Part shown: piece by piece, positions 1 through 7,601 of the stretch
Layout of the letters: every line of letters starts with the position of its first letter
Numbering within the stretch: position 1 is the stretch's first letter
NCBI GenBank assembly: GCA_937988795.1
Contig: CALKHY010000136.1
Span: 1-7,851 of the forward strand
DNA from: an uncultured Candidatus Saccharibacteria bacterium
Lineage (GTDB): Bacteria > Patescibacteriota > Saccharimonadia > Saccharimonadales > UBA4665
DNA: 7,851 bases
Direction: 5' to 3'
Program-made: the position numbers and the translations under genes
Notes under the pieces: generated by a model
Databases searched by the model: none
What the model was told of the DNA's origin: nothing
Seen by the model: only the letters and a program-made list of their open reading frames with translations

Positions 1-344
1 ATCATCAGATTGGTCGGCTCGTGCAGATACTGGATGCCGACGAACGTTTCGCGCCACTTGTCCAAATCGTCGTGCGTGAATGGCACGGCGGGCACGCCAA
101 ACTCCACCATCAGCGGATGCGGCTCGCCTTTTTTGCGGTAGGTATCGAACTCTTTTTTGAACAGCTCATCAACGGCTTTGTTGAGGGAGAACGGCGGACT
201 GTCAGGACGCTTGATCTTCATGCGCACGTCCAGCCAGAAGCAGCGCGGACACTGCATAAACAGCTCGATCTTGCTGCGGCTGACTTTATACGCAGTTTTC
301 TGTCCCGGCTTATACGGAATTGACCGCTCCCTCCAGTAATTCAT
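1..344 (-). CDS. PD-(D/E)XK nuclease-like protein, N-terminal part (gene continues beyond the window)
   Basis: The minus strand is open from an ATG at 344 to the window edge, giving the first 114 residues. The N-terminus contains SRSKIELFMQCPRCFWLD (about residues 22-39). This resembles the opening motif of RecB/AddB/Cas4-type PD-(D/E)XK proteins, in which a Ser-rich helix start is followed by a CPxxF/W segment. The following FSLNKAVDELFKKEFD (about residues 54-69) resembles a hypothetical PD-(D/E)XK protein family I recall as common in CPR genomes. The catalytic D...(D/E)XK residues would lie beyond the edge, so nuclease activity is inferred and not seen. The start lies 8 nt after the HAD gene's TAG stop, with no clear Shine-Dalgarno, so translation is probably coupled to the upstream genes. 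The antisense plus-strand open frames here are shadows. Confidence 0.72.
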   Translation of the reverse strand, partial: MNYWRERSIPYKPGQKTAYKVSRSKIELFMQCPRCFWLDVRMKIKRPDSPPFSLNKAVDELFKKEFDTYRKKGEPHPLMVEFGVPAVPFTHDDLDKWRETFVGIQYLHEPTNLM

Positions 345-352
345 CGTAAGGA

Positions 353-976
353 CTATTGTAGCAGACTCACCAGATCCATCGGCTTGTCGATGATAGCAAA
401 CGGCTTGGCCTTGCGAAGTTCCTCCTGGTTAAACCCACCCCAGGTTGTGGCGATGCCTTTTATCCCTGCCCGGTCGGCTGCTTCGACATCTAACGCTTCA
501 TTGCCAACATAATAAGTTTCTGACGATTTCATCATGTTGCGGCGCAGCATTTTTTTAAGCGCCCGTGTTTTAACGGCAGTGCTGGCGTAGTAGACCGTAG
601 CCACCTCGCCAAAAAACCGCTCCATACGATGATGCTTCAGAAAAATCTGCACGTTTTCTTTATAGTTCGAAGTCAATATGTACATACGATGCCCCGCATC
701 CTGCAGTGCGCGCAGCATGGGCACAACGCCCTCGCATGGCGCAACTTCTGTCATGCGCGGCGTCATGCGGCGCCGAACAAAAAGCATGAGTATCGGCATA
801 TACCAGTACGCGATCCCCAGTCGGCGCATGGCAGTCAAAAGCGGCAGCTCCCGAAGCCGATTAATCTTCCGCGATGGCAACCGCCGGGTCCCAGGCGCCA
901 ATTTGTACGACACATCCACCACGAGCGGAAATGTATCCGCCAGCGTGCCATCGAAATCAAAAATTACATTCGCCAT
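353..976 (-). CDS. HAD-superfamily hydrolase, phosphoglycolate phosphatase-like, with altered motif IV
   Basis: This is a 207-residue cytoplasmic HAD phosphatase. Motif I is DFDGT (nucleophile D7, acid/base D9), motif II is the ILTSN stretch (residues 100-104), motif III is the lysine at about 136 in AVKTRAL, and motif IV is YYVGNEALDVEAADRAG (155-171). A helical cap of about 70 residues lies between motifs I and II, as in the Gph/PGMB subfamily. Length is normal for the family. In motif IV the usual first acid (GD) is N159, while D163 is retained. That leaves one acid for Mg2+ binding and could alter metal affinity or activity. The ATG at 976 lies 3 nt after the stop of the heliorhodopsin-like gene, so the two are almost certainly co-transcribed. 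The substrate cannot be told from sequence: small sugar phosphates or phosphoglycolate are typical for the subfamily. Confidence 0.88.
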   Translation of the reverse strand: MANVIFDFDGTLADTFPLVVDVSYKLAPGTRRLPSRKINRLRELPLLTAMRRLGIAYWYMPILMLFVRRRMTPRMTEVAPCEGVVPMLRALQDAGHRMYILTSNYKENVQIFLKHHRMERFFGEVATVYYASTAVKTRALKKMLRRNMMKSSETYYVGNEALDVEAADRAGIKGIATTWGGFNQEELRKAKPFAIIDKPMDLVSLLQ

Positions 977-979
977 TAC

Positions 980-1873
980 CTAAGCCTGCAGTGCTCCCGC
1001 AAAGATCTGAAGTGCCAATATGACTGCGGCAGTAAAACCAAGCAGCATAAATCCCCGCTCGGCAAACAGGCTGTCCGCCCATCTGCCCCGCCGCCTTAGC
1101 CGGAGGAAGTAAGCCAGCGCAAAGGCAACTGTAAACAACAGCATACTACCGTATATGAAATACATGTAGGCCGGCAAATTGCCGCCATACACAATGGTTC
1201 CGCCCAAGGTCAGAGCTATGACAACGACAGGCAACGCGGCCGCGCCAAGCGCAGCAATTGCCACATATTTGCGCAGTTTGCGCCCCGGTCCAATCAGGTC
1301 AACTACTGTCGCAAGCGATCCCAATATGGCTAATGACGCGAAAATCAACAGCAGGTATCCAATATCAGATATACCGCTCAGTGCTGTGATAATTGCCGCC
1401 GCCACTCCGGCGCCCAAACCAAAGCCAACCCAACGCAACTTGTTGACGCCTTGGTCCAGCCACGCCTCGTAGTGCTTGCGCCACACAGTCGGCAATAGAA
1501 TAAACAACGCCGCAAAAACAACCAAAAACTTCGCCACCAACCACGACACGTTAATATCGGCAAGGTGGCGCGTGGCCGTAGCCAGCACTTCCTTGCCGCC
1601 GGCAGCCTCAGTGGCAAGCACATCTTTGGCCAGATATTGCGTCGTTAGCGGCACCGTAGACGAATTACCGGCTATAACAATCGCAATAGCCAGTACAAGC
1701 AGGACAGCGCCAAGCCGCAGACTTAGATTCCTGAGTCCACGCTTCTGCTCTTCCGTGTTTCGGGTGGCGGGAACCGATACCTTGACTGCTGTCGATTTGG
1801 TCGCAGTCGCACTTTTTTTACTTTGATTTTTTGTTTTTCGGGAAGATTCCCTCGTAGTTGTTTTTGCTGTCAT
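980..1873 (-). CDS. Heliorhodopsin-family seven-helix membrane protein lacking the retinal lysine
   Basis: The ATG at 1873 gives 297 residues. A Lys/Thr/Ser-rich tail of about 50 residues is followed by seven hydrophobic helices (about 52-70, 109-128, 147-165, 168-190, 203-229, 234-257, 272-294). Compared from memory with heliorhodopsin 48C12, it shares the PLTTQYL segment after helix 1, LRWV at helix 3, GISDIGYLLLIF at helix 4, PAYMYFIYGS at helix 6, and RGRWADSLFAER then ALQIFAGAL at helix 7 (family: GKW..YL.GER then AWQIFSGTL). The Schiff-base Lys (K241 in 48C12) aligns with A283 (codon GCA, 1025-1027). The counter-ion Glu (E107) aligns with G150 (codon GGC, 1424-1426). Helix histidines are also absent. 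It therefore should not bind retinal in the normal way; its role is unknown. The basic N-terminus fits the inverted heliorhodopsin topology (N-terminus inside). The frame extends to a TTG at 1924, but the -10-like box 7 nt before ATG 1873 favours the shorter start. It lies downstream of msrA and is joined to the HAD gene. Confidence 0.85.
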   Translation of the reverse strand: MTAKTTTRESSRKTKNQSKKSATATKSTAVKVSVPATRNTEEQKRGLRNLSLRLGAVLLVLAIAIVIAGNSSTVPLTTQYLAKDVLATEAAGGKEVLATATRHLADINVSWLVAKFLVVFAALFILLPTVWRKHYEAWLDQGVNKLRWVGFGLGAGVAAAIITALSGISDIGYLLLIFASLAILGSLATVVDLIGPGRKLRKYVAIAALGAAALPVVVIALTLGGTIVYGGNLPAYMYFIYGSMLLFTVAFALAYFLRLRRRGRWADSLFAERGFMLLGFTAAVILALQIFAGALQA

Positions 1874-1927: not shown

Positions 1928-2419
1928 CTATTTAACAGGAACGTATGGAACGTGACACATACCAATACCGGTACGCTCAGTGAATTTTTGGTGATAAGGT
2001 TCAGCTTCGTAGAACTTGCCGGCCGGCTCTATTTGAGTAACAACCGGCTTGTCCTTCTCTTTCTGTACCTTATTGCGGATTTGAATGGCGTCTCTGCGCT
2101 GCTCTTGGTCGAAGTAAAAAATGGCCGAGCGGTACTGGTCCCCGACATCCGGTCCCTGGCGGTTGAGCTGCGTCGGGTCGTGCATGCGAAAGAAATGCTT
2201 TAGAAGCGTCTCATAATTCACCTTATCCGGATCAAACTCAATGAGCGCCGCTTCGGCATGGCCGGTCGCTCCAGTGCAGACATCGTCGTAAGTCGGATTT
2301 TCGGTATGGCCGCCGGTATACCCCACCGTCGTCTTCACCACTCCAGACACTTGGTCAAAGTAATACTGCACCCCCCAGAAGCATCCTGCCGCGAATAGTG
2401 CCTTCTCTAGCTTCTTCAT
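1928..2419 (-). CDS. msrA: Peptide-methionine (S)-S-oxide reductase MsrA
   Basis: A 163-residue cytoplasmic enzyme that reduces methionine-S-sulfoxide in proteins and free methionine, using thioredoxin-type electrons. The family active site GCFWG is at residues 12-16, with catalytic Cys13. Other signatures are TVGYTGGHTENPTYDDVCTG (31-50), TGHAEA (52-57), HDPTQLNRQGPDVGDQYRSA (80-99) and the YHQKF segment near 142. C48 and C155 (in GIGMCHVP) are candidate resolving cysteines. Length matches the single-domain MsrA family, with no MsrB fusion. The frame runs upstream to a TTG at 2452, but ATG 2419 (MKKLEKALFAAGCFWG) matches the normal N-terminus and lies 8 nt after a TATACT box. It is divergent from the TrmB-type regulator and lies 54 nt upstream of the heliorhodopsin-like ATG. 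The function call is very secure. Confidence 0.97.
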   Translation of the reverse strand: MKKLEKALFAAGCFWGVQYYFDQVSGVVKTTVGYTGGHTENPTYDDVCTGATGHAEAALIEFDPDKVNYETLLKHFFRMHDPTQLNRQGPDVGDQYRSAIFYFDQEQRRDAIQIRNKVQKEKDKPVVTQIEPAGKFYEAEPYHQKFTERTGIGMCHVPYVPVK

Positions 2420-2630: not shown

Positions 2631-3428
2631 ATGCTAACGGACGTGGCTGCTATACGATCCTACTTTGCCAAGCTCGGCCTAGAGCCGGAGGTTGCCGATA
2701 TCTACCTTGCTCTGCATACCCACGGCCCGCAGACCATCTCTGAACTATCACGCAACTCCAAAGTAGAGCGCACTCGTATCTACCGCCTGATTGACCACCT
2801 GCTCTCTAGCCATCTCATAGAAGTCGAAACGCGGCATAAAAGGACCATTATTAAGGCCGCTCCCATTGCCAATCTCAATATCCTTATTACTCAAAAAGAG
2901 CAGGAATTGCGTAGCCTACAGGATGAACTAGGCCTTATCCAGCAGGTATTGGCTCGCAACAGTCTCTCCAGCCCGACAACACGCGCGCAGTTTTACAGCG
3001 GCAAAGAGGGTGTGCGCCAAATGTTATGGAATGAACTGCGTGCAAAAAACGAGATAGTAGGCTATGCTAACCGGATACTCGAAGAGGTAACTGGCAAAAC
3101 ATTTATGGAGCGCTGGACAGATGAGTTTGAGGCGCGCGGACTACAGGCACGGATTTTACTCAATGATGAGTTTGTGGAGAGCTGGCAGGCCGGCAAAAAC
3201 ACTGTCGGCACCGACCGGCGCGTCAAGAATATGGCGTACCATTATCTGCCCGACTCCGTCTTTAAGATTACGCACCTTTCTGATGTCTACGACGATGTGG
3301 TCGTATATTACCAGTGGAAAGACAATGATGTCTTTGGACTGGAAATCTATAATAAAGACATTGCTGACGCCCAGCGCGCCTTCTTTGAGATGCTATGGGC
3401 CAAGTCTAGGCCAGAAACCCGATTTTAA
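2631..3428 (+). CDS. TrmB-type winged-helix transcriptional regulator
   Basis: A 265-residue cytoplasmic DNA-binding protein. Residues 1-80 form a winged helix-turn-helix (YFAKLGLEPEVADIYLALHT, ISELSRNSKVERTRIYRLID, then a wing ending about residue 75), as in the TrmB/MarR-like N-terminus. Residues about 85-108 are a heptad-like helix (QKEQELRSLQDELGLIQQVL), a probable dimerisation coiled coil. Residues 117-260 form an alpha/beta effector-like domain (AQFYSGKEGVRQMLW) of the kind that follows the HTH in TrmB-family proteins. The ligand is unknown. The start is set by the ATG 6 nt after a TATACT box. The gene is divergent from msrA and 86 nt upstream of the surface-protein start. Autoregulation through the TTGTG repeats is likely, and control of msrA or the surface protein is possible. 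Numerous CPR genomes carry such single regulators. Confidence 0.85.
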   Translation: MLTDVAAIRSYFAKLGLEPEVADIYLALHTHGPQTISELSRNSKVERTRIYRLIDHLLSSHLIEVETRHKRTIIKAAPIANLNILITQKEQELRSLQDELGLIQQVLARNSLSSPTTRAQFYSGKEGVRQMLWNELRAKNEIVGYANRILEEVTGKTFMERWTDEFEARGLQARILLNDEFVESWQAGKNTVGTDRRVKNMAYHYLPDSVFKITHLSDVYDDVVVYYQWKDNDVFGLEIYNKDIADAQRAFFEMLWAKSRPETRF

Positions 3429-3477: not shown

Positions 3478-3506
3478 TCCTCCGTTTATGAGGGTTTTGA
3501 GAGGAG
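3478..3506 (+). promoter_or_regulatory. Shine-Dalgarno of the surface-protein gene and a complementary sequence at the mRNA 5' end
   Basis: GAGGAG (3501-3506) lies 8 nt before ATG 3515 and decides that start over the in-frame ATG at 3488, which lacks a ribosome-binding site. TCCTC at 3478-3482, essentially the 5' end of the predicted mRNA, is complementary to GAGGA at 3501-3505. The overlapping CCTC (3479-3482) can instead pair with GAGG (3490-3493) and leave the Shine-Dalgarno free. The Shine-Dalgarno is secure; a switching role is speculative. Confidence 0.7.
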
Positions 3507-3514
3507 TGAATCAG

Positions 3515-4174
3515 ATGAAGCATCTTAAGCTTGGTCTTGCTTCAGGCGTTGCCGGTGTTATGCTGGCGGTGGGTGTTACTGCACCTGCGTTTGCATGGCA
3601 CCCAGAGATTAAGATCACTAAGTACGTTACGAATGTAACAGAGGGCGGCCAAAAAGAAGACGCCAACGACGCGTCCAAGGCCGTCAAGGTTAAGCCGGGC
3701 GACATTATTGTCTACACCATTGTCGTCGAAAACCCGGCTAAGCCGGCTAAAAATGAATACAACGACCTCCACTTTACCAAGATGACCGACAACCTGCCCG
3801 AGGGCGTTGAGCTGGTAGACAACCCGGCCAAGCGCCAGATTGTCGAGGACCTTGGCGTCCTGAAGCCGGGCGACAAGGTTACTAAAGAGTACAAACTCAG
3901 GGTAACGAGCAAAAAGAACGGCGATGTTATTCGCAACGAGGCCTGCGTAAGCGGTAACAGCAAGGTCAAGGACGCGCCACGCAAGGACTGCGACCCAGCC
4001 GTCATCAAGGTCAAGGCTCCGTCCAAGCCGGTGCCGCCGAAAGAAGAGCCGAAAGAACCGGAAGTGCTGCCTACGACCGGTCCGGCAGGCGCCATTATGG
4101 GTGCCGGTGCCGTTACCATCCTCGGCTACCTCGGCAACCTGCTTCGCCTGAAGTCTCGCCAGAACCGCTTCTAG
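3515..4174 (+). CDS. Secreted, cell-wall-sorted surface protein with an isopeptide/DUF11-type domain and LPTTG motif
   Basis: A 219-residue exported protein. A signal peptide (basic MKHLK, hydrophobic core to about residue 24, AFA at 25-27) probably cleaves after residue 27. Residues about 31-167 form one Ig-like beta-sandwich of the DUF11/isopeptide type: ITKYVTN near the start, VKPGDIIVYTIVVENP (58-73), LGVLKPGDKVTKEYKLRV (113-130), and NEACVSG (141-147). K36 and N141 are in the positions expected for an intramolecular Lys-Asn isopeptide bond. C144 and C159 could form a disulfide. A Pro/Lys/Glu linker (168-183) leads to LPTTG (185-189), a hydrophobic segment and a basic tail, the classic sortase substrate ending. 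It should therefore be anchored to the wall of a monoderm cell. A very strong promoter and Shine-Dalgarno, with lysine mostly AAG, suggest an abundant protein. It could be a pilin-like or S-layer-like subunit; the exact role is unknown. Confidence 0.87.
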   Translation: MKHLKLGLASGVAGVMLAVGVTAPAFAWHPEIKITKYVTNVTEGGQKEDANDASKAVKVKPGDIIVYTIVVENPAKPAKNEYNDLHFTKMTDNLPEGVELVDNPAKRQIVEDLGVLKPGDKVTKEYKLRVTSKKNGDVIRNEACVSGNSKVKDAPRKDCDPAVIKVKAPSKPVPPKEEPKEPEVLPTTGPAGAIMGAGAVTILGYLGNLLRLKSRQNRF

Positions 4175-6797: not shown

Positions 6798-7601
6798 TTA
6801 CACCTTGCCAAGTTTGCGCTGCAGGCTGTACCACCTGGCAAACTCGTACCACACGCTGTCCTTAGGATCGATGCTGGAGACGCCCGACCCTTCCCTGATT
6901 TCGGCCAAGGTCTTCGTCTGGCCGGCATTGATAACAACCCTGTCGATACTGTAGCGGCTGTTGCCTCTAGCCTCTTGGGCGATCGTTCCGTAAAAATCCT
7001 TGGAGAATGCCTTTGATCTCTTGCCGTCATAGTATACAACGGTATGCGTCCGGATAACCGTCCTGTCAGTTTTGCCCGCCATAAGCGCCAGAAAATCTTC
7101 GGCGCGGAACCAGTCGGAGACGTATCGCATATATGCACCCGGAAAACCTCGAAGTGCCAAAATATTCCAAAATGTATCCTGTACAATAACTGGACGCTTG
7201 GCCAGACGATACGCCTCTTTTGCTTTATGTACGGCTATTTTTTCGGTGTCGAACCCCTGGATTTCGTCTACCGGCAAATCCAGTTGTTCAAGCTCAATAC
7301 CAAACTCCTGCAAAACCGCCTGCGCGTCGTAGAACTTGTGTTCATTGCCGGTGACTAACGCCAGTGTTTGCCACGCCGGTGCTTTTTCTTCGTTCACCCG
7401 CTCGTATCGATAATGTTTGTTGATGTGGGCGTAAAAATACTCGCCATACGAATCAGCCTTCAGGAAAAGATCATACACGCGCTGCTCGACATCGAAATAC
7501 TGGTACACGCGGTTTTCCTTAAACTCAACCTCGAGTATGCGCGTTTTTGGGTCGTACCCAATCGAAACAATATCCGAAGACTCAACTGGAATCCGCTGCA
7601 T
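6798..7601 (-). CDS. KTSC domain fused to a divergent Ham1/RdgB-type nucleoside triphosphate pyrophosphatase
   Basis: A 267-residue cytoplasmic two-domain protein. Residues 3-69 are a KTSC domain (SSDIVSIGYDPKTRILEVEF, VYQYFDV, LKADSYGEYF), a small domain of uncertain, possibly nucleic-acid-related, function. Residues 79-265 resemble Ham1/RdgB enzymes, which hydrolyse ITP, XTP and dITP to the monophosphate: LVTGNEHKFYDAQAVL (82-97), DEIQGFDTEKIAVHKAKEAY (112-131), VQDTFWNILALRGFPGAYM (140-158) and KTLAE (230-234). Kept are TGN with K89, acidic E113 and D142, and D220. Changed are the usual DSGL (here DTFW), the GFGYDP loop (here RYSIDR) and the SHR base-recognition motif near the end (not found), so substrate preference may differ. 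The start ATG 7601 lies 6 nt after TAGACT. lysA ends 33 nt upstream, and the DUF378 gene follows. Confidence 0.87.
   Translation of the reverse strand: MQRIPVESSDIVSIGYDPKTRILEVEFKENRVYQYFDVEQRVYDLFLKADSYGEYFYAHINKHYRYERVNEEKAPAWQTLALVTGNEHKFYDAQAVLQEFGIELEQLDLPVDEIQGFDTEKIAVHKAKEAYRLAKRPVIVQDTFWNILALRGFPGAYMRYVSDWFRAEDFLALMAGKTDRTVIRTHTVVYYDGKRSKAFSKDFYGTIAQEARGNSRYSIDRVVINAGQTKTLAEIREGSGVSSIDPKDSVWYEFARWYSLQRKLGKV

Follow-up and report, generated by a model that had tools for sequence, protein, structure and literature searches.

The window, that is the whole stretch of 7,851 nucleotides that was analysed, derives from an uncultured Candidatus Saccharibacteria bacterium and contains, on its reverse strand, four genes in the order msrA, heliorhodopsin (HeR), HAD phosphatase, nuclease. 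The msrA gene (1928..2419), coding for a peptide methionine sulfoxide reductase (PF01625, E 1.8e-63), is located 54 nt upstream of the HeR gene (980..1873); the latter encodes a protein of 297 amino acids with seven transmembrane helices and the heliorhodopsin fold, which lacks both the retinal lysine and its counter-ion. Only 3 nt downstream of the HeR stop codon lies a gene for a HAD-family phosphatase (353..976; PF13419, E 1e-26), for which the best NCBIfam name is phosphoglycolate phosphatase, with a score far below the cut-off. A PD-(D/E)XK nuclease gene runs into the edge of the window, so that only the N-terminal part of its product is encoded, at 3..344 of the same strand; this part is 76% identical to the protein found at locus L126 (genome G212), which matches PDDEXK_1 with an E of 4.5e-13. 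A TGcTATAGT string at 1881-1889, 7 nt before the HeR ATG, resembles a leaderless extended -10 promoter; it is not listed by the sigma-70 scan. Elsewhere in the window, a gene for a TrmB-type regulator (2631-3428) precedes one for a DUF11-type secreted protein (3488-4171), whose end, formed by LPTTG, a hydrophobic stretch and a basic tail, looks like that of a sortase substrate; a single open reading frame at 6798-7601 joins a KTSC domain to a Ham1-type NTP pyrophosphatase.

The assignment of the HeR product to the heliorhodopsin family, proposed in an earlier note on this DNA, is borne out by profile searches: the protein scores 126.4 bits with PF18761, for a curated cut-off of 26.7, and 114.4 bits with NF038020, the NCBI equivalog model for HeR, for a cut-off of 100. 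The profile of type-1 rhodopsins, PF01036, gave no match to the window protein up to E 1. The predicted structure displays seven helices and the two-strand A-B loop typical of heliorhodopsins, and the structural match spans the whole bundle. Residues 1-36 (1766..1873, reverse strand) form a Lys/Thr/Ala-rich N-terminal tail, predicted to be disordered (pLDDT <50 for residues 1-35), which would be cytoplasmic by analogy with the family topology; the basic B-C, D-E and F-G loops, together with this basic tail, agree with a predicted topology having the N-terminus inside and the C-terminus outside. Such a tail was considered as a trait of lysine-less proteins and rejected, as it is also carried by proteins that keep both the helix-7 lysine and the helix-3 glutamate (hereafter K/E). 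In the lysine-less HeR of L001 and L117, the N-terminus is extended by about 124 residues rich in lysine.

At the position of the Schiff-base lysine (K238 in TaHeR, whose numbering is used for these sites and for the pocket) the window protein has Ala283 (1025..1027, reverse strand), and at that of the counter-ion (TaHeR E108) it has Gly150 (1424..1426, reverse strand). The SxxxK motif of helix 7 is thus replaced at both ends, with Gly279 instead of Ser and Ala283 instead of Lys, and helix 3 does not carry the glutamate. The two residues had been located in the earlier note by an alignment that proves right to the residue; no lysine is placed by alignment at the helix-7 Schiff-base position, where Ala283 stands. 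A possible relocation of the retinal lysine to Lys115 in helix B was also evaluated, and this residue is no general substitute, since it is a lysine in only 32 of 51 clade rows. The cap salt bridge is kept: Arg147 (1433..1435, reverse strand), corresponding to TaHeR R105, is found in 51/51 clade rows, and its partner Glu272 (1058..1060, reverse strand), corresponding to E227, in 50/51; in TaHeR this ion pair is described as lying at the end of the Schiff-base cavity (PMC9385722). The protein belongs by descent among the heliorhodopsins; lacking two residues that define the photoreceptor, it should not be filed as one. The same residues suggest that the window protein probably binds no retinal.

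Two protein searches, in which roughly 8000 candidates sharing most words were scored, yielded 59 distinct entries (50, then 9 more), including the window protein and its near-copies. The lysine column contains A in 44 entries, S in 8, T in 3, V in 2 and K in 2; the counter-ion column contains G in 42, A in 7, T in 3, S in 2, E in 2, and L, I and M in one each. Lysine is therefore absent from the former in 57/59 entries and D or E from the latter in 57/59, both residues being replaced in 56 related proteins besides the window protein; the two K/E entries, P0057 and P0058, are distant matches with 31 and 33% identity. The clade set used for further comparisons comprises 51 or 52 rows, with exclusion of the near-identical P0002-P0005, mostly of P0006, of the partial P0059 and of the K-bearing P0057 and P0058. 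Both residues are gone in 46/46 clade rows of the alignment, and the question raised in the earlier note, whether the Ala283/Gly150 loss marks a clade, can be answered positively. Among 80 loci fetched, those not titled Saccharibacteria had K and E in 76/76 cases; 47 stretches of viral contigs fitted a pattern, and no relative was found among them.

PF18761 is present in 100 of 392 genomes drawn from the class Saccharimonadia. With the clade profile, matches were obtained in 111 of 392 genomes at the level of the order and in 24 of 93 from the family to which G001 belongs; the 392 genomes of each search are a draw from the larger class or order. After de-duplication, 151 distinct Saccharimonadia genes were obtained: 105 are K/E, 37 are non-K/E and 9 are partial. 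The non-K/E genes include 22 without the lysine and 15 that keep it with an altered counter-ion; D or E is found at the counter-ion column in 12 of the 37. Scored for a same-strand PD-(D/E)XK nuclease gene in the 5 kb downstream, 33/34 non-K/E and 19/68 K/E genes have one (Fisher p 3e-12), 3 non-K/E and 37 K/E genes being unscorable for short downstream DNA; L124 is the sole scorable non-K/E gene without it. The TrmB regulator is common to the window, L126 and L131, the DUF11 protein to the window and L126, and lysS, serS and rlmD are further core genes at these loci. Because this order is shared, the HeR genes of the locus are orthologues in place and not stray copies. Paralogy or gene transfer is disfavoured by the trees, in which the locus genes group together, separate from off-locus genes, TaHeR and 48C12. 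The operon neighbours are less constant: a same-strand msrA at most 400 nt upstream is found in 13/37 non-K/E and 4/105 K/E genes, and one on the opposite strand at that place in 5 non-K/E genes, while HAD is found within 100 nt in 6/37 non-K/E and 10/105 K/E genes.

Phylogenetic analyses were performed after removal of the two trait columns. In three trees the window clade is recovered with support of 99 (41 rows, L126 included), 100 (19 rows) and 100/99 (13 rows), and it sits among K/E locus genes; monophyly of the locus genes with respect to off-locus genes and the two reference proteins is supported at 99 in the 19-row-clade tree, from which L147 and L149 were excluded and redundant rows thinned, and at 100/99 in the 13-row-clade tree, which was built without 11 rows that were long or unsure, 5 K/E locus rows and the clade rows past the twelfth. 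In the latter, the presence or absence of the lysine needs 8 changes, 7 of which are forced by strongly supported branches, and a single clade of all lysine-less rows, a group defined once the earlier trees were known, is rejected with a p-AU of 2.9e-11; the alignment is less sure for the fast-evolving lineages. The changes alone do not separate loss from gain; the direction is probably that of loss, since all outgroup rows are K/E and the exact lysine is unlikely to be regained. A second fast-evolving Saccharimonadia lineage occupies the same locus (L125, L127, L129, L135-L137, L139, L142 and L268); here the Schiff-base column is occupied by K, R or Q, and the counter-ion column by D, Y, S, I or M. 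The trait thus belongs to the Saccharibacteria locus as a whole, with several parallel losses, a finding larger than that stated in the earlier note.

Erosion extends beyond the chromophore site to other positions of the retinal pocket. Identity reaches 95% or more among 68 K/E genes at 51 columns. Of these, 21 still carry the residue in 80% or more of 42 clade rows, and the other 30 fall below that level; the lost near-invariants include K238, E108, H82, Y109, S112, M142, G146, G167, G171, F203, F206, S234 and W243, with F74 (79%), L241 (76%) and A237 (74%) only partly lost. In the clade rows, H82 is changed to Phe or Tyr, the three glycines G146, G167 and G171 to Ala and others, and H23, just below the 95% mark in K/E genes, to Leu in 94%; R105, W106, E227, P174, Q244 and F246 are kept. 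Mean column identity is 0.42 in the clade against 0.72 in K/E locus genes for helix F, and 0.60 against 0.79 for helix G. The extracellular A-B loop (residues 69-108; 1550..1669, reverse strand), with beta strands predicted by AF2 at 73-83 and 97-108, shows the opposite trend, with 0.61 in the clade against 0.45 in the K/E locus orthologues. No other element has gained as much conservation in the clade (p 3e-7 versus the helices; 3e-4 at a stricter redundancy filter), with near-invariant T77, Y80, D84, L86, R102, H103 and D106. On the sequence comparison, conservation appears to have shifted toward the surfaces and away from the ligand pocket.

New residues are also found on the cytoplasmic side. 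In the D-E loop (residues 195-202, GPGRKLRK; 1268..1291, reverse strand) the clade has specific basic residues: position 198 is K or R in 44/51 clade and 10/105 K/E genes, position 202 in 43/51 and 1/105. In the F-G loop (residues 258-267, RLRRRGRWAD; 1073..1102, reverse strand) Arg258 is clade-specific, K or R being present in 50/51 clade and 1/105 K/E genes. Net charge is 3.3 versus 1.8 for the D-E loop and 3.3 versus 2.5 for the F-G loop in clade and K/E genes, respectively; since the B-C loop is less basic in the clade (1.8 versus 3.0), the three loops together reach only 8.4, against 7.4 in K/E genes. Moreover, positions 200, 260 and 261 are basic less often in the clade than in K/E genes, and L126, a clade member, is without most of the basic residues of the D-E loop. 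Basic residues have been partly relocated, as read from the alignment, and not solely gained.

A protein that has lost its chromophore site could be a functionless relic heading for loss. The decayed pocket is what such a fate would produce, and K/E-type genes broken into pieces do occur in Saccharimonadia, at L120 and L121; but even clade rows that are no more than 34% identical to the window keep an open frame, 12 columns are invariant among the 46 clade rows, the new residues are fixed across the clade, and the lysine-less L142 and L268, a pair from a lineage of the locus other than the window clade, give a dN/dS of about 0.1, with a dS of 1.96 that is near saturation. A dead gene is accordingly unlikely, in line with the intact frame pointed out in the earlier note, and the slimmest chance is left to a relic. 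The protein could otherwise be a subunit of mixed dimers, tuning a retinal-binding heliorhodopsin encoded elsewhere in the genome, similarly to what has been suggested for type-1 Rh-noK (PMC10308929). Indeed, a K/E gene elsewhere accompanies the non-K/E gene of the locus in some genomes (e.g. G188, G328 and G319); however, a single heliorhodopsin match and no type-1 rhodopsin match are found both in G001 and in G212, the latter a member of the window clade with a contig of 1,450,269 bases, making a mixed dimer improbable. Of 56 genomes tested, three gave type-1 rhodopsin matches, and each of these is a K/E locus genome. The retinal synthesis profile PF15461 matched 0/56 genomes; its absence is weak evidence, because none of 14 built-in controls matched either, and 1 of 14 actinobacterial genomes did.

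Two further readings give the protein a ligand of its own. The former pocket might hold another small hydrophobic molecule, such as a lipid, a carotenoid, a quinone or free retinal, whose binding would be signalled to a partner; the helix bundle is kept, polar sites of the pocket have become hydrophobic at positions 23 and 82, and non-light sensing was proposed by Becker in 2016 for type-1 opsins without the site (PMC4915679). This is unlikely, though, as a dedicated ligand site should be held, and helices D-G, which line the pocket, have lost conservation relative to K/E genes, with larger residues at the three former glycines that would narrow the cavity. Alternatively, the conserved A-B loop might bind an outside target (a host cell, matrix or an ion), in a cell-surface receptor or adhesion protein. 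The tightening of this loop and the nearby gene for an LPxTG-like surface protein, though on the other strand, are consistent with such a role; no secreted partner gene is fixed beside HeR, however, and the loop forms the dimer in known heliorhodopsins (PMC9385722), which alone could explain its conservation, so that a surface receptor appears rather unlikely. It may nevertheless be an external ligand, and not the dimer, that accounts for the conserved A-B loop.

The best explanation, to which we assign a probability of about 0.48, is that of a heliorhodopsin-derived seven-helix protein acting independently of light, as a dimer that docks or regulates a cytoplasmic partner at the membrane. It is favoured by the shift of conservation to the surfaces and by precedents for AbHeR, TfHeR and the A-B loop. 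By analogy with known heliorhodopsins, in which this loop is reported to be required for the dimer and its deletion to abolish retinal binding (PMC9385722), the A-B loop would keep the dimer together, and the basic cytoplasmic loops would hold on to a soluble protein, in the way published for the heliorhodopsins that bind glutamine synthetase or photolyase. The operon neighbours, MsrA or the HAD phosphatase, would be the first candidate partners; this is the weakest step, being based on position. The msrA adjacency is only a weak pointer, because it holds for 13 of 37 non-K/E genes and 4 of 105 K/E genes, and it may reflect inherited gene order, because the loci also hold lysS, serS and rlmD; no literature pairing "heliorhodopsin" with "methionine sulfoxide reductase" was found. 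The ancestor would have been a light-tuned regulator whose protein-protein role was retained when the pigment was lost. The retinal-free function suggested in the earlier note is thus supported as the best inference, because both chromophore residues are lost, the frame is intact and conserved and the loss is clade-wide; its choice among a sensor, a scaffold and a binder of another ligand is narrowed by the shift to the A-B loop and to two cytoplasmic loops, and is not settled. More tentatively, and as a view we would put forward with some doubt, the main job of the HeR at the Saccharibacteria locus could be performed without light: the sites would have been dropped repeatedly (at least 7 changes), the large window clade would have fixed the loss and been rebuilt as a light-blind docking platform with new surfaces inside and outside, and retinal would be optional, tuning a more ancient protein-protein function.

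Retinal-less opsins of type 1 are well described (PMC4915679, PMC10308929, PMC7714340). A published clade of lysine-less heliorhodopsins was not found in the open-licence literature, and none is shown in the accessible portions of PMC8612252, PMC11109279, PMC9296517 and PMC8406219; PMC7714340, however, reports about 600 Rh-noK among 5,558 microbial rhodopsins "including HeRs", so that earlier counts may already include lysine-less heliorhodopsins. The broad survey of PMC9601134 is described as keeping only sequences with the TM7 lysine, and that of CPR genomes in PMC9166423, which lists 80 heliorhodopsins in Saccharimonadia, as checking SxxxK, the commonest motifs being SLVAK, SLIAK and SFVAK. 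Surveys requiring the lysine cannot see the lysine-less group, which is a warning for annotators. Conversely, NF038020 passes the lysine-less protein, and P0003, a database copy of the window protein, is named heliorhodopsin HeR; both are a likely source of wrong photoreceptor annotation. As the role of heliorhodopsins is largely open, a constrained clade without the chromophore site represents a natural experiment on the light-free work of the scaffold.

With heliorhodopsins such as TaHeR and 48C12 (PF18761) the window protein shares the profile and structural match over the whole bundle, the A-B strands, Arg105/Glu227, W106, Q244 and the tail end of helix G; it differs in the absence of the helix-7 lysine, of the helix-3 counter-ion and of the histidines of the Schiff-base cavity, and in the change of 30 of the 51 near-invariant columns. 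Type-1 Rh-noK and opsin-related proteins (Becker 2016; Yamauchi 2019; freshwater FArhodopsins) also form clades of lysine-less proteins with the opsin fold (PMC4915679, PMC10308929), and the likeness is one of analogy only: the window protein matches heliorhodopsins and not PF01036, its counter-ion is gone as well, and the losses occurred in parallel at one locus. A functional comparison would be with regulatory heliorhodopsins, namely AbHeR with glutamine synthetase, TfHeR with photolyase and OcHeR with OmrDE, for which binding of an operon-encoded partner by the seven-helix protein has been proposed (PMC9529153, PMC9769723, PMC11109279). AbHeR is reported to bind glutamine synthetase through basic residues of a cytoplasmic loop, lowering its Km from 27.05 to 12.75 mM in the dark and 9.46 mM in the light (PMC9529153), and TfHeR to bind photolyase through charged cytoplasmic residues (PMC9769723); conserved basic residues are likewise found in the cytoplasmic loops of the window clade, with a B-C loop less basic than in K/E genes. 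These regulatory heliorhodopsins, however, bind retinal and respond to light, whereas the candidate partners of the window protein are indicated by gene position alone.
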